In this document: positions 5,231 to 26,379 of the stretch, in pieces
Numbering within the stretch: the first letter of the stretch is position 1
How the letters are laid out: every line of letters starts with the position of its first letter
Source: a virus
DNA length: 35,548 nucleotides
Strand: one strand, 5' to 3'
IMG/VR virus record: IMGVR_UViG_3300025131_000191
Coordinates: 1-35,548 of that record
Program-made: the position numbers and the translations under genes
The notes under the pieces: generated by a model
The model's database searches: none
Seen by the model: only the letters and a program-made list of their open reading frames with translations
Told to the model about the DNA's origin: nothing

Positions 5231-6828
5231 TAGTCTAGTAATTCTACATTAATTGTTAAGTTATTCAACTGAACAATTTCATTAAAATCAATTGAGATAT
5301 CTTGTTCAATGTTATCTATAGTTGAGTATCGAACTTCATCAACCTCAAAGATTTGTCTGTTCATTTGAGCCACATTAAAATCTTCTCCGAACTCTTTATT
5401 ATCTACATTCATATATGTTAGGATCTTATCTCTAACTCTCGCTTTAATTTGATCCTGGTTTTCTTCCTCTTCTCTATCAATCCGAATTGTGGTAATTAAA
5501 TCTAAAGTTCTAATAAGCCCATCAACAATAACCACATCGTCTGTTGCCATCTTCTTCTTGTTAATAGCAGTTAGTAATTGAGTTTTAAAGTTTGTCGTAG
5601 CTCGTTGTAATTGAAAATCAGAAGCTTTTTCAAGAACATAAATATCAACTACATTAGCAGAAGAATAAGCTCGTCGAGTAGCTGCTGTAGCCTTACCAAT
5701 TGTACCAAAGGTGCTAATAAACGTATTAGCGAACACAGAATAATCCTCTAAAGTAACTAAACGATCCTGCCTTCTAAAATTTAGTGGAGCATATCGTTTA
5801 GCATGGTCTAAAGTCTCGGCATTTGAGCCTCCTGTACCTTTAGAAGTATTTGTTATATTTACAGAAATAGCACCGTCAAGAGTCCCAGCAAGAGTATTAT
5901 CAATAGTATTCTTTCCTATGTTCCCTCGGGTTCCTCCCCCCACTCTATAAAAGACATAATAATTAGAGGTGTCATCTGGAGAAACTCCTACACTGCCGTC
6001 CCCGAAAACTATGGTCGCTTTGTAATCATCGTCGTAAACTACTTCAAAAATCTTATCAGAAGATCCAGAAGCGAAAAACACATTAGGTACTTCAACAAAG
6101 GCTCCGTTCTTGGTCGCATTAGGCCCATCAGTATAAACCTGAACGCTTCCCTCTACAACAGGACTTTGTGTAAGTTTAATAGTTTTAACACCTTCAGTGG
6201 CTGCGAAACTTCCTGTATCTTTTACTAATGTACCTTCTTGTAAAACTACATTTTCAAATATTTTATTATCAGCACCAATAGTTTCAGTATAATGAAGTTC
6301 AACATTACCAGTACTATTAACTGTATCAACAAGCCCATTAACAACTTTATATAATGTATAAGTTAAAACTCCTCCATCTTCAGGAGAGACAGTTTCAATT
6401 ATTCTATTTTGTGCGCCAATAGTTAAAGTTCTCTTCGCGCCTACAGAGGTTAGTGCTGTCGGAGAAGTAATCTTCGCATCAGTCGCAGCAGAAAGAGGAC
6501 CCTTCATACGAATTCCAATTAACTGCAATAGCTTCTTAACGCTAGGTCGTTGTGTTGCAGTGGCTAGAAAGTTCTCATTAGCAAGCATATCAGCCTTCAT
6601 AGACATAACAGATCCCATGTAGGCTACAAGCTCTAAGAACATCATTCCTAAATCAGATTCTACAAAATACTTATAATCTCTAGGATAAACTGCCTTAGCA
6701 TAATCAATTAGAGAATTACGAAGAGTAAGAAAATCAGTAGCAGCAAAGTTAATAAGAGAAGGTCTCTTTACTACAGGGACTTCTGCTAACTTCATAAAGT
6801 CCGATGCAATGGTTCCAGAAAAGTTCAT
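5230..6828 (-). CDS. 6: Baseplate wedge protein, gp6/Baseplate_J family
   Basis: This 532-aa protein (T4 gp6 is about 660 aa) belongs with the Baseplate_J family, whose members dimerise to form the ring of wedges around the hub. The N-terminal part has a long helical segment with YKYFVESDLGMMFLELVAY, a pattern common at the start of gp6/J-like proteins. The middle contains FYRVGGGTRGN near residue 295, the Gly-rich signature of J-type baseplate proteins, followed by FRRQDRLVTLEDYSVFA. It begins with an ATGA overlap on the gp25-like gene upstream and ends in a TAATG overlap with the gpI-like gene. The gp25-gp6 neighbourhood is conserved in contractile tails, which supports the call. Confidence 0.9.
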   Translation of the reverse strand: MNFSGTIASDFMKLAEVPVVKRPSLINFAATDFLTLRNSLIDYAKAVYPRDYKYFVESDLGMMFLELVAYMGSVMSMKADMLANENFLATATQRPSVKKLLQLIGIRMKGPLSAATDAKITSPTALTSVGAKRTLTIGAQNRIIETVSPEDGGVLTYTLYKVVNGLVDTVNSTGNVELHYTETIGADNKIFENVVLQEGTLVKDTGSFAATEGVKTIKLTQSPVVEGSVQVYTDGPNATKNGAFVEVPNVFFASGSSDKIFEVVYDDDYKATIVFGDGSVGVSPDDTSNYYVFYRVGGGTRGNIGKNTIDNTLAGTLDGAISVNITNTSKGTGGSNAETLDHAKRYAPLNFRRQDRLVTLEDYSVFANTFISTFGTIGKATAATRRAYSSANVVDIYVLEKASDFQLQRATTNFKTQLLTAINKKKMATDDVVIVDGLIRTLDLITTIRIDREEEENQDQIKARVRDKILTYMNVDNKEFGEDFNVAQMNRQIFEVDEVRYSTIDNIEQDISIDFNEIVQLNNLTINVELLD

Positions 6829-7289
6829 GATATGTTTACCTCAACATCAAATGTTTCTAAATCAGCAGTATCTAATTTTAATGATAAAACCACTTTAAGG
6901 GAGTTTCCTCCTGCTGGTCCTGCTTCTCCCATAGGAAAAACAGCTAATTTTCCTATGTGGGCTCCTACAATATAATTCTTAAATGAGTATTGAATCTCCC
7001 TCTTAATTGATTCAAAAGTAGATTCATCTAATGGTTGAAAAAGATACTTTCGTAGATTGCACCCAAAATTGGGAAGCATAACTCGCTCTCCCCTCTCTGT
7101 TAAAAGTAACTGCTTAACTGCTTCTTTTATCATAACAACACCAGATCGCTTTGAAAAGAAGCCCCCTCCCGAAGTAGATCCCAGGGGGAAGGATAGCCCG
7201 TAAACCTCTTGCTTCTGCGAGGTTGGTCCTTGCTTCATATACCTAGGAGGTATTCTTCCAAAAACCGAAACTGTTTGGTTAGCTGCCAT
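6825..7289 (-). CDS. 25: Baseplate wedge protein, gp25 (GPW/gp25) family
   Basis: This 154-aa protein is slightly longer than T4 gp25 (132 aa). It carries the family core: SGVVMIKEAVKQLLLT, then GERVMLPNFGCNLRKYLF, then FESIKREIQYSF. The conserved ExR-like turn and the NFGC.LR..LF segment are hallmarks of gp25/GpW, the sheath-initiator wedge protein also found as TssE in type VI secretion. The gene is joined to its neighbours by a TAATG overlap at the 5' end and an ATGA overlap at the 3' end. The N-terminal 35 residues are an extension relative to T4. Confidence 0.92.
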   Translation of the reverse strand: MAANQTVSVFGRIPPRYMKQGPTSQKQEVYGLSFPLGSTSGGGFFSKRSGVVMIKEAVKQLLLTERGERVMLPNFGCNLRKYLFQPLDESTFESIKREIQYSFKNYIVGAHIGKLAVFPMGEAGPAGGNSLKVVLSLKLDTADLETFDVEVNIS

Positions 7290-9994
7290 TAGGTAATAAT
7301 ATTCTTGAAGAAGCCTTCTTGGGCTTTATAGTTTTTTAAAACTTCTGCATTATCTAGGGCTCTAGAGTAAAATTTTAAGCTTCCTATGTGACCACGCAAT
7401 CCGCTTGTTACTCCTGATCTATTCCCTCCTAGGAAGTTGCCGTGCTGGTACATACCATCCGTGTATCCTCCACCAACAATCCAAGGAGTATAGAAGGTAT
7501 TTAGGAGAGGACCTTGTTTTAGTACCGTAGGACCATCCACCGTAGTAGAGGAGTATTGGAAACTATTATCTTTCTTAAAGGAAGGCAAACTTGGTGCAAC
7601 TTGGGGGTCTACCCCAAATACAGTAGAAATAGCAGACGTAGCCACTAATGAACCATCAGCAAAAAGTTTAATTGTGTCTGTAGTAGGATCACAGGATATA
7701 TCAATAAGAACGAATTGAGAAGATACATTGCCGAAGGCTGTGGCAGAAAGGTCCACTTTCATTTTATAGAAAGTTTCATAATCCTGACAATCATCATTAT
7801 TAATCCAAGAGGCTGAGGAGAGGTCTCTAGCTTGGGTTGGGGCTATGAAGAAACTTAAAGAGGAGGCTGGGTCGTTATCGTAATTATTATTGCTGTAAGC
7901 TGCGGAGGCTTGGGTAATTCTTCTATCTCTAGTAAAGCCACAAACCATTCCTCGCACAAACTGATCACCTCGTCTATTTTCTAAGAAATCCAGATCCCGT
8001 GCCGTTGCTGTGTGATCTATAGCAGAAGCTCCTGATGCTGCGCCAACATTCTCACTAGCTAATATTACCTTTGTAAGCGCAGATGCTGTAGAACTGAGCC
8101 AACCAACTCCTCCGTCCATAATATCAGGAACATGAGCCCAGCACTCCATAGTAAACCCACTTGGCGAATAAGTTAGATCCTGGAACTCTTTAGTGTCGGG
8201 GAGCTTTGCATAAGATCCTAGTGCTGATGCTGCTGCGGGATCACTAGATTTATTTTTAACAATACCTTCTAAATAAGGGATGCCTAGACCAGAGACAAAC
8301 ATAGTTTTTTTAGAAGACCCAACTAACTGAGCATTGTTATACATATTCTCCGTAGCACAGTTGGTTACTGGGAACGCAATAGAGGATGGTAACTCTAAAT
8401 CAGTCTCCAAGAAGTTGTATATGGCAAAGAGATTATCATTTACAATCTGATCATTTAAAGATAGTACAGTTCCTGCGTTTGCGGAGGATGGAGAATAAAG
8501 AATAGATCCTTTTCCTACAGTAGGAACATTCAGATGTCCAATCGAGAGAGAAGGAGGTTTTGCACTTGTCTTAGCAAACTTAGCATCAATAGGTAAAACA
8601 ATACCTACAACATCTGCTTGTTTGAAAATTAAAGAATTTTGTTTTTCAAAATCTACTGATAGATCATAATCAGCTAAATAAGAGAAATCATTAATTGGAA
8701 CCTCCCCAGGAGCAAACCTAGGACCAGCCAAATCTCCATAAATTTGGGGGGCTTTTACAGCAACCTCAATCTGCTTCTTTCTTCTATTTATTTTATTATT
8801 ATGATTAGCAATTTCAGAGATAATTAAGTTTCTCTGGTTAGTTACAATTGAAGAGTCTTCTCCGTAATCAGCGATAAAGGTATATAAATCAGAAGACAAG
8901 TTATACACTTGCTTATTTCTTTGTTGTTTAAGGACTGAGAGGAAGTGATCCTCGTCATAATACATCTGGAGTCCTTGGCTATCATCAATTCTATCTATAT
9001 CAAAAATGTTATCTGTAAACTTATTTAACGCTTTGATTGAGACCGCTTCACCCTTTCCTCCAAGGTTAGGATCGTAATCATATTTCCATTGATCCCCAAT
9101 AGGAACTATTCCCGAAATAGCTAGAAATACGGGATCCAAACCACCAGACTGAGAATCATAATAAAGACCATCAGAGGTTAGTACATACTGTCCTGTAGCA
9201 GTTTTCGGGGGTCCATAAGTAAGTCTAAAGACTTCTTGTTCATCACTCCCAACTTCAGGATCTTCCAAAGGACTTCTAGGAAAAGTAGTTTGGTTTAAGA
9301 AGGGATCTAATTCTGTTGAATCAAGTAGCTTGGGCTCTAATGAGGGGTCTGCAACCCTTTCCTTGATGATATCATTGATTTCATCAAGCTTACTATTGCA
9401 TTGAGAAATAAAGTTTGCCGCTGAAGCGAGTCGAGCTTTATCTCCTGAATACATAGAAGCAAAGAGTTCATTGGCTTCTGCTGAAGGAAGGGTAGCTCTC
9501 TCGTCAGCAGAGTTCCCTGATTGGTAGGATTGGAGGTCGTTCCACTTCTGAAGACAATCAGTGATCGCATCAATTTGATTTGTTATATCCGTATAGTTTT
9601 GGTATATTTGCGCTCCAAATGATGCAGCATATTGGAAGGCTCCTAAAAGACCAGAGAGGTTATCTTTTGTTTGGCTATCATCATTATCAATCCCCATCCA
9701 AGCAGTATCTGAGAAAAACTTAAATACTCCGTTCTCTGTATCAAATTCAATAATACCCGTATTCAACATCAGCTTCTTGAAGACCTCTTTGGTTATTTCA
9801 TTAGCTTTCGATTTTCCCGCAGCTACATTTGATTGCATATTGCTTAATACAGAGCTTGGAAGCAGCTTCATAGCATCCTGGGCGATATTCAACATACAGC
9901 TAGGCATTCCATAAGCCATGCCCAGGGCCTGAATAGCTCCAGTCCCTGTTTGCCCCTGAACTTTTAAGAATGTTTCTAAATCAAATGATGCCAT
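7289..9994 (-). CDS. Virion protein with C-terminal LamG/concanavalin-like domain
   Basis: This 901-aa protein lies between the spike (gp5-like) and gp25 genes. Residues 1-230 are helical. The middle is low in recognisable features. From about residue 610 to the end the order GFTMECWAHVP, IKLFADGSLVATS, then GHIGSLKFYSRALDNAEV matches LamG-type (concanavalin-like) lectin folds, which often bind glycans or act as structural beta-sandwiches. The ATG is preceded by AGAGG six bases upstream. The location suggests a baseplate component or short fibre attached near the hub; the exact role is not known. A C-terminal lectin-like module fits host-surface contact, which is inference. Confidence 0.7.
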   Translation of the reverse strand: MASFDLETFLKVQGQTGTGAIQALGMAYGMPSCMLNIAQDAMKLLPSSVLSNMQSNVAAGKSKANEITKEVFKKLMLNTGIIEFDTENGVFKFFSDTAWMGIDNDDSQTKDNLSGLLGAFQYAASFGAQIYQNYTDITNQIDAITDCLQKWNDLQSYQSGNSADERATLPSAEANELFASMYSGDKARLASAANFISQCNSKLDEINDIIKERVADPSLEPKLLDSTELDPFLNQTTFPRSPLEDPEVGSDEQEVFRLTYGPPKTATGQYVLTSDGLYYDSQSGGLDPVFLAISGIVPIGDQWKYDYDPNLGGKGEAVSIKALNKFTDNIFDIDRIDDSQGLQMYYDEDHFLSVLKQQRNKQVYNLSSDLYTFIADYGEDSSIVTNQRNLIISEIANHNNKINRRKKQIEVAVKAPQIYGDLAGPRFAPGEVPINDFSYLADYDLSVDFEKQNSLIFKQADVVGIVLPIDAKFAKTSAKPPSLSIGHLNVPTVGKGSILYSPSSANAGTVLSLNDQIVNDNLFAIYNFLETDLELPSSIAFPVTNCATENMYNNAQLVGSSKKTMFVSGLGIPYLEGIVKNKSSDPAAASALGSYAKLPDTKEFQDLTYSPSGFTMECWAHVPDIMDGGVGWLSSTASALTKVILASENVGAASGASAIDHTATARDLDFLENRRGDQFVRGMVCGFTRDRRITQASAAYSNNNYDNDPASSLSFFIAPTQARDLSSASWINNDDCQDYETFYKMKVDLSATAFGNVSSQFVLIDISCDPTTDTIKLFADGSLVATSAISTVFGVDPQVAPSLPSFKKDNSFQYSSTTVDGPTVLKQGPLLNTFYTPWIVGGGYTDGMYQHGNFLGGNRSGVTSGLRGHIGSLKFYSRALDNAEVLKNYKAQEGFFKNIIT

Positions 9995-14210: not shown

Positions 14211-15187
14211 TACAGTCCTCCGTATCCTGGATCCATGCTATGCGTATCACCCAACACAACGGCTTCCCATCCCGCTAAATTATCTTTCTTAATAATGTCG
14301 GCAGTATCAAACTCTCCAAAGTCTCCAGTGCGTATTTCCTCTAACTTCATAGTAACTTTTAGTTGACGGGGTAGTAAAGTATCTAAATCATACCCTGCTG
14401 CTTCATTATAGTCAATTGTGTAGTTCGTACATATACAAGGAATATCTTGATAAAGAATGCCATGTCTTAACCTTAATACAGGAGGACCGTAAAGGGGGTT
14501 TTTAGAATTATTTACTACACTAGATCTCACAATATTTGTCCAATAAATAATAAGATCAATAATTCTATACTTTATTTGTTTTTGTTGATTGTCATCAAGA
14601 ATTTTAGTTGGAATAGTAGGATCTTCATCTACAACGGTCCTATTTAGGACAAAAGGACTTATCTCATCTCCTACAATTCCATAACTATCCGTAAACTCCC
14701 TTCTTTCCTCAACGGTCATGCCTTGTAATGCCCAATCTGAAGTTAAAACTTGTTTTGCTGATTCTGTAGCTTGTTCCTTTGTATATTTAGTCCCAAGCTC
14801 AAAAGCCATTCCCTTTGGTGCAGAGTCTGCCTTATATGGTTTTAAAAACTTTTCTTTTTCAGAGTCTACATTCATTGGATCTTTTTCATACTTAACAAAC
14901 TGGTCCAACGAAACTCCTGGGTGATCGTCTAAGATGTGCGGCAACGTCATATTGAAAGATAAAGTAAGATTGCGGGAGTCGGCTCCCAGATAACTGTACA
15001 AATTACTTGATCTAGAGATCAAAGAATACTTTTGATACTTTGCTTTCTTATTTTCTTTAATACTAACATTTTCGAAGAAGGGTAGCTCAATAACATAAAA
15101 ATCACTACCCTGTGTTGGTACAGGGAAGTAAAACATGAGCTTTGATCTTTGGGGTAATGCTCTATCAACTATGTGTCTATTTGTCAT
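14210..15187 (-). CDS. Baseplate/tail-tube-associated protein (gp48/gp54 position)
   Basis: This 325-aa protein lies directly after the tape measure gene and before gp53. The N-terminal part (KLMFYFPVPTQGSDFYVIEL, then ENVSIKENKKAKYQKY) and a C-terminal segment (GILYQDIPCICTNYTIDY, then DTLLPRQLKVTMKLEEIRTG) have the look of tube/baseplate-junction proteins in T4-like and other contractile phages. In T4 the comparable slots hold gp48 and gp54, the tube initiation platform. I cannot tell which of the two it corresponds to. One-base overlaps join it to both neighbours, showing coupled expression. Confidence 0.5.
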   Translation of the reverse strand: MTNRHIVDRALPQRSKLMFYFPVPTQGSDFYVIELPFFENVSIKENKKAKYQKYSLISRSSNLYSYLGADSRNLTLSFNMTLPHILDDHPGVSLDQFVKYEKDPMNVDSEKEKFLKPYKADSAPKGMAFELGTKYTKEQATESAKQVLTSDWALQGMTVEERREFTDSYGIVGDEISPFVLNRTVVDEDPTIPTKILDDNQQKQIKYRIIDLIIYWTNIVRSSVVNNSKNPLYGPPVLRLRHGILYQDIPCICTNYTIDYNEAAGYDLDTLLPRQLKVTMKLEEIRTGDFGEFDTADIIKKDNLAGWEAVVLGDTHSMDPGYGGL

Positions 15188-17223
15188 TATTTATCCGTAA
15201 GGTCTGTATGGGAGCCTCCTGCGACTGCCTCTGCGGCTGCTTTTGCTCGTTGTAAGTTTGCTTCTCTTAGCTCCTCTAGCATCTCTTCTGCGGTGGTGTC
15301 TCTTCCAACCCCAAGGATACCTTCAATGCTTCGTCCAAGCATATTAGCTGTTTGATCTAAGAACTCTGGGGTTGTAGCTATTTCAGGAGTTTTTGCATTA
15401 ATCTCCTCTAAGTTTTTTTTGCTCTCTTCAGCAAGACCTAGATTTTTCCTATCTAGTGCTAATCTCTCGTCAAAAGACATCTTCACTTCGTCTGCTTTTT
15501 TTGCGTCTGCGCCTATAGCTTTTTCTTGTGTTTTTTTCGCCTCGTTAGTTAGTTTATACTGTGCGTCCGTAGTATTTTGGAGTTTTTTTAGATCGTTTTT
15601 TTGCTCCCTGAGGATTCTTTCAAACTCTAGAATTGCCGCATTGCCAGTTTGCATATTGCCCGACTTATCTCTTCGCTCTTTTTGAAACTCGATAGCCTTT
15701 CTTGTTTTCTCCATATCCGCTTCTTTAGCTGAAATAGCTTCTAAGCGTGTCATTGCTCTAGTTGTGGACTCGACTACTTTAGCAGATTCTTTAAGACTTT
15801 CTCCAAAATCTCCAAGGAACCCACCAATAAGGGGCAAATCATTAAATTTCAGAAGTATACTACCTAACATATCTTTGAACGCATTAAAGGTCTTTGATAG
15901 CACCCCTACTACTGTATCCCAAATTTTGAACTTCTCGTTTAATTTGAAAATAACGTAGCCGAGAGCTACGAAGGGTGCTGCGATTGCTATAACTGGTAGA
16001 AGAAGCAATGCGAGTTTTATGGCTAATAGTCCAAAACTAACAATAATAGGTGGTAAGATGGTGGCTGCTATTAGAATAAGCTTTGCTGTTATTAGTGTTA
16101 ACGCTAGTGTAAAACCTATTTTAATAATCGCTATATTTTCTGTAATGGCATCTTTAATAGCATAGAACTTTTGTTTTACTGTATCAACTACCCCTGTTAA
16201 CCCTCCCATCTGAACATATAAATCTTTAGCTCGTTCGACTAAGAAACTAATAGCGTCTTTCATAGCCCCTCCAATAACTATAGCTATAGACTTAAATATT
16301 GGAAAAAATTCAAGCAATGCTTTTTGAAGAGGTATCATAATTTCATCTTTAATAACACCTAATTGATCTCCAAAAGCCGCAGCTTGTTCACCTTCTTCTG
16401 CTGTTCTCTTTCCAAATGCGTCCTGAACAGCAGTGAGTTGGATAGCTGAATCACCAAAAATTTCAGAAGCCACACCAACTTTAAAGAAACCATCACTAGC
16501 ATCTCCAACAACATCTTTAAAAGTTCCTGAAGCTTTCGCTATAGCGTCTTTTAAGATTTTCTGGGCTTCAGCGGAACTCTTTGCGGCAGAAAGCTGTTCT
16601 CTTACATTTCCAATGCCTAGCTTAGTTAATTTTTCATAACCATCCATGCTAGTATCCATGATCATACTCATGACACTATCCATGGGACCCTTCATCGAAG
16701 GGCCTAATTCAGCGGTTAGTGTGGTAAATGCCTTAGTAACCTCAGTACCCATACCTGCTAGTTTTTGGGCAGGAAATGATTTAGCTAAGGTATCAATAGC
16801 ACCAACCAAAAGATCGGTACTAACCTGCCAAGTTGCCCCTAACTCTGGTAGTCCTGCTGCTAGATTATTCGTAGCATCCCTGGAAGTATCGAGAGTCATT
16901 TCCATCTGAGCAAAAACTTTAGCGGTTTTAGCCGACTGGGTTCCTGTTAATCGTTGTTGGTTAACAAGCCTAGCAATCCCTGCGGTGTTCCCCTGAAGTC
17001 CAGCCTCCATACCAGCGATCCCAGCAGCAAAGCGTTGGTTCATATCCCCCCGTAAACCCTCCATTGTGCCACCAAGCTGATTGTTGGTTTGCTCAAAGGT
17101 CATACCTAAAGCTAAACTAGCTTTTTCAGCATTCATGGCAAAAGTCATGGCACCTTTAATCTGGGAGGTTAATCCCTCCATGGCTTTAGTTAAGCCACCT
17201 AGTACAAGATCTGATACTACCAT
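15187..17223 (-). CDS. Tail tape measure protein
   Basis: This 678-aa protein has the classic tape-measure make-up. Residues 1-340 are Ala/Gly/Met-rich helices (GMTFEQTNNQLGGTMEGLRG). Residues about 368-426 contain several hydrophobic membrane-spanning segments (FTLALTLITAKLILIAATIL and following). Residues 490-620 are a charged coiled coil (AISAKEADMEKTRKAIEFQK, then DERLALDRKNLGLAEESKK). In T4 the equivalent is gp29, which sets tail length and passes DNA into the host. Its location just upstream of the baseplate genes agrees. At 678 aa the tail would be of moderate length. Overlaps of one base link it to both neighbours. Confidence 0.8.
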   Translation of the reverse strand: MVVSDLVLGGLTKAMEGLTSQIKGAMTFAMNAEKASLALGMTFEQTNNQLGGTMEGLRGDMNQRFAAGIAGMEAGLQGNTAGIARLVNQQRLTGTQSAKTAKVFAQMEMTLDTSRDATNNLAAGLPELGATWQVSTDLLVGAIDTLAKSFPAQKLAGMGTEVTKAFTTLTAELGPSMKGPMDSVMSMIMDTSMDGYEKLTKLGIGNVREQLSAAKSSAEAQKILKDAIAKASGTFKDVVGDASDGFFKVGVASEIFGDSAIQLTAVQDAFGKRTAEEGEQAAAFGDQLGVIKDEIMIPLQKALLEFFPIFKSIAIVIGGAMKDAISFLVERAKDLYVQMGGLTGVVDTVKQKFYAIKDAITENIAIIKIGFTLALTLITAKLILIAATILPPIIVSFGLLAIKLALLLLPVIAIAAPFVALGYVIFKLNEKFKIWDTVVGVLSKTFNAFKDMLGSILLKFNDLPLIGGFLGDFGESLKESAKVVESTTRAMTRLEAISAKEADMEKTRKAIEFQKERRDKSGNMQTGNAAILEFERILREQKNDLKKLQNTTDAQYKLTNEAKKTQEKAIGADAKKADEVKMSFDERLALDRKNLGLAEESKKNLEEINAKTPEIATTPEFLDQTANMLGRSIEGILGVGRDTTAEEMLEELREANLQRAKAAAEAVAGGSHTDLTDK

Positions 17224-20279: not shown

Positions 20280-21257
20280 TCAAGTAATCGTAAAATAGAA
20301 CGGAGGAGTTACGAAGTCTTGAGTTAGATAAGAATATGAAGCCTTGATCCAATATGTTCCCGCACCTTTCTGAGCAACACCAGCCGCAGCAGTTGTATCG
20401 TAAGTATAAAGGATTGTGTTATCTGTCGTAAGTGTAGCACCAGCATCAGCTACAACGCTAGTCCACGGAGCCTGATTAACAGCATCATCATTAACTTTAC
20501 TGATAGAAATTGTAGGATTAGTGATTGGATAATCCTTCAAGATATTCTTGGTTTCTTCTGAAAGAGTACTATTCTGAACCGTAATATCAGTCGTAATTTT
20601 CATATCAATTTTTTCACCATAACGAAGCTTCTTGTTGAGAAGTTTGTTACGAGTAGTAATCAGAAGTGGTTCTGTGATCGTAGTGAAGGTATCGTTATAG
20701 AGACTGAAGTTATTAATAAAGAGTTGATACTCAGAGGTATCAAAAAGTTTTACAGTCCAAACATCAATGTAGTCCTGAACAGAGGAAGCAGCGTTGGCTA
20801 CTGTAATTCCGTTATTAAAAGGATATCTAATATTGTAACCACCTGACAAACTGGTATTACCATCTAGAACAGCAACATAGTCTCCAACACCTACTCGGTA
20901 AATCCCACTTGCTTGAGAACCAGGAGTGTAAAGAGTTGATGAAACCCACAACGGATCAAGCAAGTTCTCACTAGTGGTATACCCAGCAGTTCCATCATGA
21001 ATATCTGGAGCAGCCCCACCAGAAACCCCAAAGTTCATTAAAACTACAGAAGTAGCATCACTTTTGATTAACCCATCGTCAGTATCAACAATAGAGCTAG
21101 GGGAAGCATTAGATAACTTAGCAAAGATAGTGCAAGCACTAATATCGTAAGGATCAATAAATTCACCGTTATTAATAAATAGCGTTCTAACTGCTACTTT
21201 TCCACCCACGCTCGGGCGGTTAAATCTATCAACTAGCGTTACTCCGTTTAATTGCAT
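20280..21257 (-). CDS. Unknown probable virion protein
   Basis: I do not recognise this 325-aa protein. It is rich in Thr, Ser, Val and Asn with beta-strand alternation (GIYRVGVGDYVAVLDGNTSL) and closes with a likely Ig-like or beta-sandwich end (GTYWIKASYSYLTQDFVTPP, ending FYFTIT). One helical stretch lies near residue 245 (TLSEETKNILKDYP). It follows the assembly-chaperone gene, whose predicted frameshift extension overlaps its first 29 bases, so translation is probably coupled. The context suggests a tail or neck component; no more can be said. Confidence 0.6.
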   Translation of the reverse strand: MQLNGVTLVDRFNRPSVGGKVAVRTLFINNGEFIDPYDISACTIFAKLSNASPSSIVDTDDGLIKSDATSVVLMNFGVSGGAAPDIHDGTAGYTTSENLLDPLWVSSTLYTPGSQASGIYRVGVGDYVAVLDGNTSLSGGYNIRYPFNNGITVANAASSVQDYIDVWTVKLFDTSEYQLFINNFSLYNDTFTTITEPLLITTRNKLLNKKLRYGEKIDMKITTDITVQNSTLSEETKNILKDYPITNPTISISKVNDDAVNQAPWTSVVADAGATLTTDNTILYTYDTTAAAGVAQKGAGTYWIKASYSYLTQDFVTPPFYFTIT

Positions 21258-21422
21258 CTTGTTCTCTCTCTAGATCTTCTCTTAGTAATTTTAAGAATAT
21301 GGTTCTCTCTGTACGAGTCATAGTTTTTACATCGGAATATGTAAAATGCGCTCGTTTCACAAGTATATAGGCTTCTAGAAGAAGAGAATCGACATCAATT
21401 ACTTCATCTAGTTCACATCGAA
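21229..21422 (-). CDS. Predicted -1 frameshift extension of the assembly chaperone
   Basis: In the -1 frame after the slippery site an open frame of 63 codons runs to a TGA at 21231-21229. It has no usable start codon near its beginning (first in-frame ATG at 21321). The encoded segment includes LLLEAYILVKRAHFTYSDVK and MTRTERTIFLKLLREDLERE. That is the kind of C-terminal helical pair (FTYSDV..M...ER..FL.LL) I associate with tail/baseplate assembly chaperones of the gp51/gpGT type. It fills a stretch otherwise empty of genes (21258-21407). Slippage would give a 308-aa fusion in addition to the 248-aa product. Whether it is made by frameshift or by internal initiation is not shown. Confidence 0.65.
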
Positions 21423-22154
21423 AAAATTTGCGTCAATTGGCAGATCTACGACCGACACCCCTCCGCAGTCCTTACAAATAAATTTAATCTTAGTGTCAAC
21501 ACCATATTCGGACTTTATAGCATTTAAGATGGTTCTAACATCTTTGAGAGGAAGTTTATCCATCACTGCGGAAATAATGGACTTATCAGTATGTCCTTCG
21601 ATCTCTGTCACAAACCGCCATAATTGATCTAGGGCCTGTTCTGTATCCATGAAAAGTCTTTCATCCTTCACTCTAGGTTGTCTAACTTTAATTTCTTTTT
21701 TTGCAATTGGTAGCGTAAAAGTAATTGGATCCTCAAAATCATCAGGAACTGGGTTTACGTTAAGCTCAGAAAGCTTAACGGTTGTAGGGTTCTCAGCTTT
21801 ACATTCTTGACATAAAAGGAGAGTATTGTAGTCATCACCATAGGAGATTTCTCTCAACTTCATAATTAAATAAAGCTTATCCATAGGAAGAAGATCCATT
21901 ACTTTAATATTAGTAACACATCTCTGTAAAACTAGGTTTACTGGGTCATCATTCTTTTTAGCCCCTACAATAGCTTTCTCATCCTCAAAGGTCATGGGCC
22001 GCACGGTAATTGGCATATCCTCATCTTCTAAAGTATAGGCTCTACACTCAGAGGGTAGTTGTACCTCTAGTGCTGTGTCCGAGGGCACCTCTTTCAGTAG
22101 GTCCTCAATAATTTTCTGCTTTGCAGCGTCAGCATTTGGATCGTTTGTTATCAT
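21408..22154 (-). CDS. T4 baseplate hub assembly protein/chaperone family (gp26/gp51-like)
   Basis: This 248-aa protein fits the T4 baseplate hub-assembly protein family. The N-terminal part has VQLPSECRAYTLEDEDMPIT and VRPMTFEDEKAIVGAK. A four-cysteine zinc-ribbon-like pair is visible at Cys115/Cys118 (CQEC) and Cys227/Cys230 (CKDC). In T4 these proteins help assemble the hub and are not major parts of the finished baseplate. It ends FFDVN with TAG at 21410-21408. Just before the stop lies the slippery heptamer T TTT TTC at 21426-21420, followed by an open -1 frame. The gene is divergent from uvsW with 42 bp between starts. Confidence 0.75.
   Translation of the reverse strand: MITNDPNADAAKQKIIEDLLKEVPSDTALEVQLPSECRAYTLEDEDMPITVRPMTFEDEKAIVGAKKNDDPVNLVLQRCVTNIKVMDLLPMDKLYLIMKLREISYGDDYNTLLLCQECKAENPTTVKLSELNVNPVPDDFEDPITFTLPIAKKEIKVRQPRVKDERLFMDTEQALDQLWRFVTEIEGHTDKSIISAVMDKLPLKDVRTILNAIKSEYGVDTKIKFICKDCGGVSVVDLPIDANFFDVN
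21420..21426 (-). other. -1 ribosomal frameshift slippery site (T TTT TTC)
   Basis: On the minus strand the heptamer TTTTTTC fits the X XXY YYZ rule in the zero frame (AAT TTT TTC). It is six codons, counting TTT and TTC, before the TAG stop of the assembly-chaperone gene. Slipping back one base leads into a 63-codon open frame. The known precedent is the G/GT tail-chaperone frameshift of lambda and many other long-tailed phages. Confidence 0.6.
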
Positions 22155-24303: not shown

Positions 24304-26379
24304 TTAATTTATTCTCTTACAAGCGAATGTAGATCCCGCTCTCAAATTTGTAGTGGCATCAGCAGTAATCTGAATTCCAAGTTTATCCCCTGCCATTAAA
24401 TACCCCATCCAATGAAGTCCAGCATCTGTTGGCTCCGCATTATTTCTCATTTGAAGAACTTTGGTAATTCGAGTAGTTTCTATACCCAAGGCACTAGTTT
24501 GCAGTTGTTGTGTAATTGTGGTTGGGTTAGTCGATCCTACGGGTAGAAAAAAACTACCATTAAAAATAATTTCATAATACCCAGTAGCTGCTATTAATAT
24601 ATGCTCTGGATAAGTGGGAACCCAAGTAATAAGTTCTGGGGATAGTTCATAAGAGGTAGTTGCAGGAGAATCCCCAGCGTCAGCAGCATTTCCACCAAAA
24701 TAAAAGTCTGTTTGATCCACTGTAGACTGCTCGTCATCCGTTTGCTGAACATAAATCCAAGGAGCGGGAACGGGACAAGCACTTACTGTAATTGCAGATA
24801 CTGTAGCAGCGGGAGCAGTACCTCCTAAACACTTTGTACTTGATACATCACCCCAAGTAGCGGCATTATCCCAATCCCCTGATTTACTTGTGACTGTAGA
24901 CTCTGTACTATCCCAACCAGCAAAACCAGGAGCGGAAGGAACTTGAGCATCTAGAGTGGCTGTACTAGCTTCAACCGAACCTGACCAAACATTCAAGGCA
25001 TCAGTACTAGTATCAAGATCAACTACACTGGTCTCCACATTTCCTGAAAAAGCATCTACAATACTAGACAACCCAGCAGTACTAGTCTCCATAGTACTAG
25101 AGAAAGTTTCAAAGGTACTAGATGCGTTTTCTAGGTCACTAGAAGCGTCAGTAATATAATCCCTAACCCTATTCCAGTCAGAATATCCTACTGCTGAAGG
25201 AACTTGGCTTTCTACAGTAGTTACTCTAGAATCAATACTACCGATGTTTGTTGTGTTCGTAGTAATATCTCCATCAATAGTAACTACACTAGTATCGACT
25301 GAACCTGACCAAACATTCAAGGCATCAGTACTAGTATCAAGATCAACTACACTGGTCTCCACATTTCCTGAAAAAGCATCTACAATACTAGACAACCCAG
25401 CAGTACTAGTCTCCATAGTACTAGAGAAAGTTTCAAAGGTACTAGATGCGTTTTCTAGGTCACTAGAAGCGTTAGTTACATAAGCCGTTGTCCTATCCCA
25501 ATCACTATAGCCTACAGCAGAAGGAACTTGGCTTTCTACAGTAGTTACTCTAGAATCAATACTACCGATATTTGTTGTGTTCGTAGTAATATCCCCATCA
25601 ATAGTAACTACACTAGTTTCCACATTTCCTGAAAAAGCATCTACAATACTAGACAACCCAGCAGCACTAGTCTCCATATTACCAGAGAAGGTTTCAAAGG
25701 TTCCTGATGCGTTTACTAAATCTCCCGAAGAATCAACAACAAACGAACTAACCTCTCCTATATATCCAGAACCGTCTGTAATATAGTTTAAAACTCTATC
25801 TCGGAGAGAGGATGTATCTCTAACATTCTCAAAAGTATCCTCCCACCGAGCAGACACAGCCGTATCAACATTAGCATTTCCTCCCCCAGTCCAAGCTCCA
25901 GAAGTAGCAGAAACAGTATCCCAAGCACATAATGAATAGTTATATGCTGAAACCCAAAAAGCCGACCCGTCCGTAGTACTACTAACAGTATCTAACGCAG
26001 CATTCCAATTCTCATACCCATCAGCGGAAACCCCGCCTCCCCCAGTCCAAGTAGCTGAAGTAGCAGAAACAGTATCCCAAGCACATAATGAATAGCTATA
26101 TGCTGAAACCCAATAAGCTGATCCGTCTGTAGTACTACTAACAGTATCTAACGCAGCATTCCAATTCTCATACCCATCAGCGGAAACCCCTCCCCCAGTC
26201 CAAGCTCCAGAATTATCAGAAACAGTAGCAGATACCCCATCAATTCCACTAACCGCATTTCTAACATTTCTAGTGAGGATACTACTAGAAATAGTATCAT
26301 CTGCTGTCATTGCCTTTAATCCAGTAGGTCTCCCTAATTCATCGGCATCTAGTGCAACTAATCCTGAAAAGTCTGTCAC
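24304..26379 (-). CDS. Repeat-built fibre protein with C1q-like C-terminal domain
   Basis: This 691-aa protein is rich in Ser, Thr, Ala, Val and Asp and built of repeats. Two 52-aa units (SADGYENWNAALDTVSSTTD and the following WVSAY, CAWDTVSAT) lie near residues 57-160. Two 108-aa units (TTNTTNIGSIDSRVTTVESQ, VPSAVGYSDW, ASSTFETFSSTMETS) lie near 254-467. The repeats look like a fibrous trimeric shaft. The last 130 residues (YYEIIFNGSFFLPVG, then AGDKLGIQI, ending GSTFACKRIN) have the look of C1q/TNF-like trimeric tips, as in some phage fibres and exosporium proteins. A tail or head fibre that binds the host surface is likely. The 158-aa gene lies just upstream. Confidence 0.75.
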   Translation of the reverse strand: MTDFSGLVALDADELGRPTGLKAMTADDTISSSILTRNVRNAVSGIDGVSATVSDNSGAWTGGGVSADGYENWNAALDTVSSTTDGSAYWVSAYSYSLCAWDTVSATSATWTGGGGVSADGYENWNAALDTVSSTTDGSAFWVSAYNYSLCAWDTVSATSGAWTGGGNANVDTAVSARWEDTFENVRDTSSLRDRVLNYITDGSGYIGEVSSFVVDSSGDLVNASGTFETFSGNMETSAAGLSSIVDAFSGNVETSVVTIDGDITTNTTNIGSIDSRVTTVESQVPSAVGYSDWDRTTAYVTNASSDLENASSTFETFSSTMETSTAGLSSIVDAFSGNVETSVVDLDTSTDALNVWSGSVDTSVVTIDGDITTNTTNIGSIDSRVTTVESQVPSAVGYSDWNRVRDYITDASSDLENASSTFETFSSTMETSTAGLSSIVDAFSGNVETSVVDLDTSTDALNVWSGSVEASTATLDAQVPSAPGFAGWDSTESTVTSKSGDWDNAATWGDVSSTKCLGGTAPAATVSAITVSACPVPAPWIYVQQTDDEQSTVDQTDFYFGGNAADAGDSPATTSYELSPELITWVPTYPEHILIAATGYYEIIFNGSFFLPVGSTNPTTITQQLQTSALGIETTRITKVLQMRNNAEPTDAGLHWMGYLMAGDKLGIQITADATTNLRAGSTFACKRIN
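24977..25617 (-). repeat. Tandem 324-bp repeat in the fibre gene
   Basis: Units are offset by 324 bp (108 codons). Bases 24977-25148 and 25301-25472 are identical by eye over 172 bp, and 25189-25293 matches 25513-25617 with few changes. A third, diverged partial copy follows at about 25611-25730. Identity at the DNA level points to recent duplication or recombination. Confidence 0.85.
25901..26212 (-). repeat. Tandem 156-bp repeat in the fibre gene
   Basis: Two near-identical units with a 156-bp (52-codon) offset encode the SADGYENWNAALDTVSSTTD segments. They lie in the N-terminal part of the fibre, distinct in sequence from the 324-bp repeats. Reading frame is kept. Confidence 0.8.

Follow-up and report, generated by a model that had tools for sequence, protein, structure and literature searches.

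A T4-type tail-assembly chaperone gene that very probably yields gp26-like and gp51-like forms by -1 ribosomal frameshifting

In this report, we analyze a stretch of viral DNA of 35,548 nucleotides (nt), positions 1 to 35,548 of the IMG/VR record IMGVR_UViG_3300025131_000191 (hereafter the window), and in particular the gene found at 21408-22154 on its minus strand. This gene very probably encodes a T4-type tail-assembly chaperone that is made in a short, gp26-like form and a long, gp51-like form by means of -1 programmed ribosomal frameshifting. As judged from sequence comparisons, this one gene would almost certainly do the job that is divided between genes 26 and 51 in T4. An earlier note on the same DNA, made from its letters alone, had proposed a -1 frameshift with the logic of lambda G/GT. 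That proposal holds, and the geometry on which it was based (the coordinates, the phase of the slippery heptamer, an extension of 63 codons and products of 248 and 308 amino acids (aa)) was found to be right in all of its numbers. The features of the region are collected in Table 1.

Table 1. Coordinates of the chaperone gene, its frameshift region and the gene downstream of it
Feature	Position	Strand	Basis or remark
Short form, 248 aa, ATG start; gp26-like tail-assembly chaperone (PF12322 T4_baseplate, phrog_150)	21408..22154	-	Pfam, phrog_150, alignment of 44 relatives, AlphaFold
Slippery heptamer T TTT TTC, codons AAT TTT TTC (Asn/Phe/Phe)	21420..21426	-	Same phase in 68/68 relatives
Zero-frame stop TAG	21408..21410	-	9 nt past heptamer
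-1 frame extension, 63 codons and TGA; predicted to be the C-terminal domain in the long, gp51-like product	21229..21420	-	phrog_634 (E 7e-4), phrog_150, dN/dS, pLDDT
Candidate stem-loop (CTAGATGAAG...CTTCTTCTAG), putative frameshift stimulator	21375..21411	-	Begins 8 nt past heptamer; -12 kcal/mol, z -1.7
Downstream gene, 325 aa, no function assigned	20280..21257	-	Open reading frame list; start overlaps end of extension by 29 nt

The open reading frame (ORF) at 21408-22154 ends with the codons GCA AAT TTT TTC GAT GTG AAC TAG, in which the heptamer T TTT TTC (21426-21420) has the phase X XXY YYZ. In the -1 frame, no stop is met between a point 22 nt ahead of the zero-frame TAG and the TGA at 21231-21229. 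The predicted fusion contains 245 + 63 = 308 aa and reads NFF followed by RCELDEV across the junction. The probability that a stretch of 63 codons would be open by chance at this base composition is P = 0.0026. Among the 24 genes of the window, there are two in-phase occurrences of T TTT TTY, and the one in 21408-22154 is alone in lying at the end of a gene. The other occurrence, at codon 608 of 692 in the ORF at 24304-26379 (691 aa), is internal to that gene and probably a product of chance.

A scan of IMG/VR returned 71 relatives, of which 68 are at least 35% identical (35-93%) and three are remote (23%). A non-redundant set was formed from 49 loci that are less than 90% identical. In all 68 of the closer relatives, T TTT TTC or T TTT TTT is retained in phase, the -1 frame is open and the extension comprises 57-66 aa, and this is more than can be ascribed to chance occurrence. 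The earlier note had named relatives without the slippery site, or with stops in the -1 frame, as findings that would speak against a frameshift; none such were found at this level of identity. The heptamer is 9 nt from the stop in nearly all relatives, and each relative has a run of 6-8 T's. At the 49 non-redundant loci, the six T's form the longest run without variation from 45 nt ahead of the site to 69 nt past it. The codon ahead of TTT TT is AAT, GAT, TCT, AGT or GGT, and thus ends in T at all 49 loci, compared with 68% where these residues are encoded at other places in the gene. The first Phe codon at the site is always TTT, compared with 79% TTT among the other Phe codons of the gene. 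Because the 49 loci are related and not independent, these codon figures are descriptive and are given without a probability. The three remote relatives (L069-L071) have neither the site nor a -1 extension; in these, TTT TTT CGT is found farther upstream, and it is the +1 frame that is open.

The ratio of nonsynonymous to synonymous substitution rates (dN/dS) in the extension, a check that had been proposed in the earlier note, was determined to be 0.19 in the -1 frame, compared with values of 0.80 and 1.74 for the two alternative frames. Across the 49 loci, there are no in-frame stops in the extension, versus an average of 7-8 in the other frames. These substitution and stop patterns indicate that the extension is under purifying selection, and in the -1 frame only. 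The mean column identity is 66% for the extension and 59% for the short protein. The short form and the extension were folded as separate chains with AlphaFold. The extension was confidently predicted to be a helical domain with a predicted local distance difference test (pLDDT) score of 89.5, and the short form was predicted with a score of 86.8.

The short form matches the Pfam family T4_baseplate (PF12322) with an E value of 5.4e-18 and 65.9 bits, against a cut-off of 24.5 bits, and it provides the one match to PF12322 within the record, which is a 35.5-kb fragment; a second full-length gene, as in T4, may lie elsewhere in the genome. The E values for phrog_150 and for the Pfam family TAC_7 are 1.4e-23 and 0.09, respectively, and no significant match of the short form was found among the folds of the PDB. 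Of the 282 positions in phrog_150, T4 gp26 covers 14-235 and the short form from the window covers 14-234, whereas T4 gp51 covers 13-280 and the predicted fusion covers 15-281. T4 gp51 is therefore a long version of gp26, and the gene in the window is predicted to yield one of each. The earlier note had linked this gene with T4 genes 26 and 51 and had regarded it as a fused version of the two. The link is upheld, but there is no fusion of 26 and 51, since gp51 is itself a long gp26. The note had also called for a profile search of the extension against gp51. The profile of the extension was compared by hhalign with that of the named-phage extensions, in which the C-terminus of T4 gp51 was itself included, and the match was firm (96%). 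In a Foldseek search with the extension, the gp51 of P-HM1 was near the top (E 0.026).

In the proposed mechanism, most ribosomes would end at the TAG and release the short form of 248 aa, which corresponds to T4 gp26. A smaller fraction would slip back by one base on T TTT TTC and continue to the end of the long form of 308 aa, which corresponds to T4 gp51. We infer both the slippage and its rate. By analogy with lambda G/GT, many short copies and a few long copies of the chaperone would coat the complex of tape measure and hub, and the extra helical domain of the long copies would recruit tail-tube or hub subunits before the chaperones depart.

It could be argued that the extension constitutes a small gp51 gene of its own that is translated by re-initiation or from an internal start, with no fusion protein being made. 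Database records of cyanophages and rhizobial phages do annotate a separate gp51 of 54-62 aa at the extension, and 78 of 80 P-SSM2-type contigs have an in-frame ATG. In the window, however, the only -1 frame start that leaves at least 35 codons is a GTG at 21360, which is 50 nt past the stop and lacks a Shine-Dalgarno sequence, and the use of which would remove a third of the extension. At 15 of the 49 loci there is no ATG, GTG or TTG that leaves 35 codons of extension, a start with a Shine-Dalgarno-like motif is found at one, and among the starts that are present in this set none is conserved. On this survey, the extension almost never has a usable start of its own in the group to which the window belongs, as the earlier note had surmised for the window, and internal initiation was rejected for this group. 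The conservation of the protein (FFR.EL) begins at the slippery site, ahead of any start codon, and six invariant in-phase T's are not needed for re-initiation. T4 gp51, moreover, is a full protein with both the N- and C-terminal parts. Neither Aeromonas 65 nor Asswx_1 has a start codon that leaves 35 codons of extension for a separate gp51, and frameshifting is therefore the likeliest route in these two phages. The earlier note had counted an extension encoded as a gene with its own start as evidence against the frameshift; this is in part what is seen in the cyanophages, where the ATG is present and a gp51 is annotated, but not in the group of the window. We consider a separate gene to be very unlikely.

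Slippage of RNA polymerase on the T run, such that ribosomes read a mixture of mRNAs and no frameshifting takes place, is equally improbable. A homopolymer is indeed found at the site in every relative. Polymerase slippage into the -1 frame, however, requires the insertion of one base or the deletion of two, and six T's are short for slippage by a bacterial polymerase. What is conserved at the site is the phase for a tandem slip, T TTT TTY, and not the length of the run; phiM9 keeps this phase with T TTT TTG. An error of assembly or sequencing, or a decayed gene end, would appear identical to a frameshift where a single disruption of frame is seen in one metagenomic contig, but the same junction recurs in isolate genomes and in 68 further contigs, and the extension is under purifying selection. 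Error and decay are thereby refuted and retain a negligible probability.

Some of the results weigh against -1 frameshifting as the source of a gp51-like long form. Covariation at the candidate stem-loop was not above that of shuffles, and no consensus structure was returned by RNAalifold. In the cyanophages, the KVP40-like phages and phiM9, a -1 frame ATG is located at or just past the stop, and coupled re-initiation could contribute there. The match of the extension alone to phrog_634 ("baseplate hub assembly catalyst") is weak, with an E value of about 5e-4 to 1e-3, and the Foldseek matches of the extension are all above E 0.001. A tape-measure gene, which would be expected just downstream of a chaperone gene of the G/GT type, was not identified within the window.

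It is possible that a downstream stem-loop acts as a stimulator of the frameshift, a structure that chaperone genes of the G/GT type do not require. At the candidate stem listed in Table 1, pairing was found in 71% of cells, and near relatives have a similar stem that is not universal. The sequence GGAGGGG upstream of the heptamer was considered as a Shine-Dalgarno-like stimulator and rejected; it is more than 30 nt ahead of the heptamer, which is too far, and it codes for a Cys-x-x-Cys loop. In the alignment of the 44 relatives, the chaperone has two invariant Cys pairs, C115/C118 and C227/C230, which suggest a candidate zinc-binding site.

The T TTT TTN junction is also present in cyanophages and in KVP40-like, Aeromonas 65-like, Sinorhizobium and Ochrobactrum phages, and was found in P-SSM2, P-SSM4, S-N03, phiN3, phiM9, KVP40-like phages, Aeromonas 65, Asswx_1 and ORM_20. 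The extension in these phages is for the most part either entered as a gp51 gene in its own right or overlooked. The Kyanoviridae (P-SSM2 and P-SSM4) resemble the window in having an in-phase T TTT TTC with the extension in the -1 frame, and differ from the group of the window in having an in-frame ATG past the stop and in being entered as two genes in the databases. The short gene of P-SSM2 ends with AGT TTT TTC GTA TAA and its gp51 is in the -1 frame; the predicted fusion peptide over the junction is ...SFFRISMAHEDLESYYK. The heptamer T TTT TTC is kept in 80 of 80 P-SSM2-type contigs. Among the other phages, the variant in phiN3 is T TTT TTT and that in phiM9 is the one given above, and XacN1 and RAS14 have T TTT TTT farther upstream of the stop.

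The cyanophage gp51 as annotated (for example, at P-SSM2 6495-7390, which is L094:3496-4391) consists of the C-terminal domain only, which is read in the -1 frame past T TTT TTC, and the full long form is absent from the annotation. PSSM2_106/107 was considered as the chaperone pair of P-SSM2 and rejected, since it is not of this family; the true pair is located at 6495-7390. In Vibrio D506 (L099) and VAP7 (L103), the extension is in the -1 frame without T TTT TTN (CTT TTC and CAC GTT TTT CGC, respectively), and TAATG overlaps the stop. The VAP7 site is similar to the GTTTTT motif of the Andersonviridae.

T4 genes 26 and 51 resemble the gene of the window in their products, a short and a long protein that occupy matching positions of the profile and belong to Pfam T4_baseplate. 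T4 differs from the window in having two full-length genes, with gene 51 on the strand opposite to gene 26. The end of T4 gene 26, GAG TTC TTT GAG TTA CTA TAA, lacks a slippery site, and the -1 frame there is occupied by gene 25. T4 gp26 and gp51 group as sisters (97/83) next to the frameshift-type Straboviridae in a maximum-likelihood tree, in which gp51 has a very long branch. This placement tentatively suggests that a duplication replaced frameshifting in T4, subject to the long branch of gp51.

The slippery site of lambda is GGGAAAG, and lambda gpG/gpGT differs from the chaperone of the window in slippery site and in protein family, the match to Pfam TAC_7 being no better than E 0.09. In lambda, short chaperones are made in large numbers and long ones in small numbers by -1 frameshifting (PMC5009743). 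A conserved poly-T -1 frameshift with the motif GTTTTT has been described for the myophage tail chaperone of phage Adele (Vandenendeviridae/Andersonviridae) (PMC12846349). The likeness of the Adele chaperone to that of the window is in the poly-T -1 frameshift; the motif differs, and protein homology is no part of the comparison.

A broader reading is that T TTT TTY frameshifting is the ancestral and majority route to the hub and tail chaperones of the T4 superfamily, with the cyanophages and some of the Straboviridae among its users. The gp51 gene listed separately for cyanophages would then be an artefact of annotation, and T4 would have acquired its 26/51 pair through a later duplication that made frameshifting unnecessary. 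We regard the case for this reading as evenly balanced. Frameshifted tail chaperones are a classic class that is common in phage tails, and T4-type tail-assembly chaperones (gp26/gp51) were reportedly identified by Vladimirov, Gautam and Davidson (2022), as is gathered from papers that cite their work. A passage of PMC10885494 that summarises Vladimirov et al. 2022 states that some T4-like phages have short and long genes in place of frameshifting, and a passage of PMC12846349 that cites the same work refers to poly-T -1 frameshift signals in the short-form genes of T4-like phages. In view of these accounts, the suggestion of the earlier note that the arrangement may be undescribed is doubtful. 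The firm results are that the conservation is broad, that the two forms correspond exactly to gp26 and gp51, and that the group of the window lacks a usable start codon.

T4 gp51 has long been termed an essential protein with function unknown (PMC3004832). The C-terminal domain of gp51 would correspond to the frameshift extension of the gp26-like gene in relatives, and both proteins can be explained as one chaperone of two lengths. Gene callers split or miss the long form in these phages, the cyanophages included. If the tentative duplication is correct, then T4 is a clear case of a lineage that has swapped a conserved frameshift for two genes.

The module found in the window is of the T4 type, with a terminase, a portal, and gp25-like and gp6-like baseplate wedge genes, and is adjoined by a UvsW-type helicase. 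The closest terminases from named phages, including those of Flavobacterium and Microcystis phages, are about 30-34% identical, and the window is therefore assigned to an uncultivated lineage far from T4. The overlap between the extension and the next gene, or a tight junction, is similar in most relatives. The ORF at 15187-17223 (678 aa) has 51% helix-forming residues and no convincing family match, and is a candidate for the tape-measure protein.

PF12322-type genes with a downstream frame in +1 (or -2) were found in Bacillus SP-15, Streptococcus GXN1 and Listeria LIS04 (L074, L075 and L076) and in L081. The SP-15 group (SP-15, LIS04 and GXN1) shares with the window a PF12322-type gene and a downstream domain in another frame; the gene of this group is located close to the genes for the tail tube and the tape measure, and in SP-15 and LIS04 it is just upstream of the latter. 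The downstream frame in the three phages appears gp51-like. Unlike the window, the group has its extension in the +1 (or -2) frame, and CC CGA TTY is common to all three phages just ahead of the stop. The different shift in this group, which is sister to the clade of the window, suggests a separate +1 frameshift.
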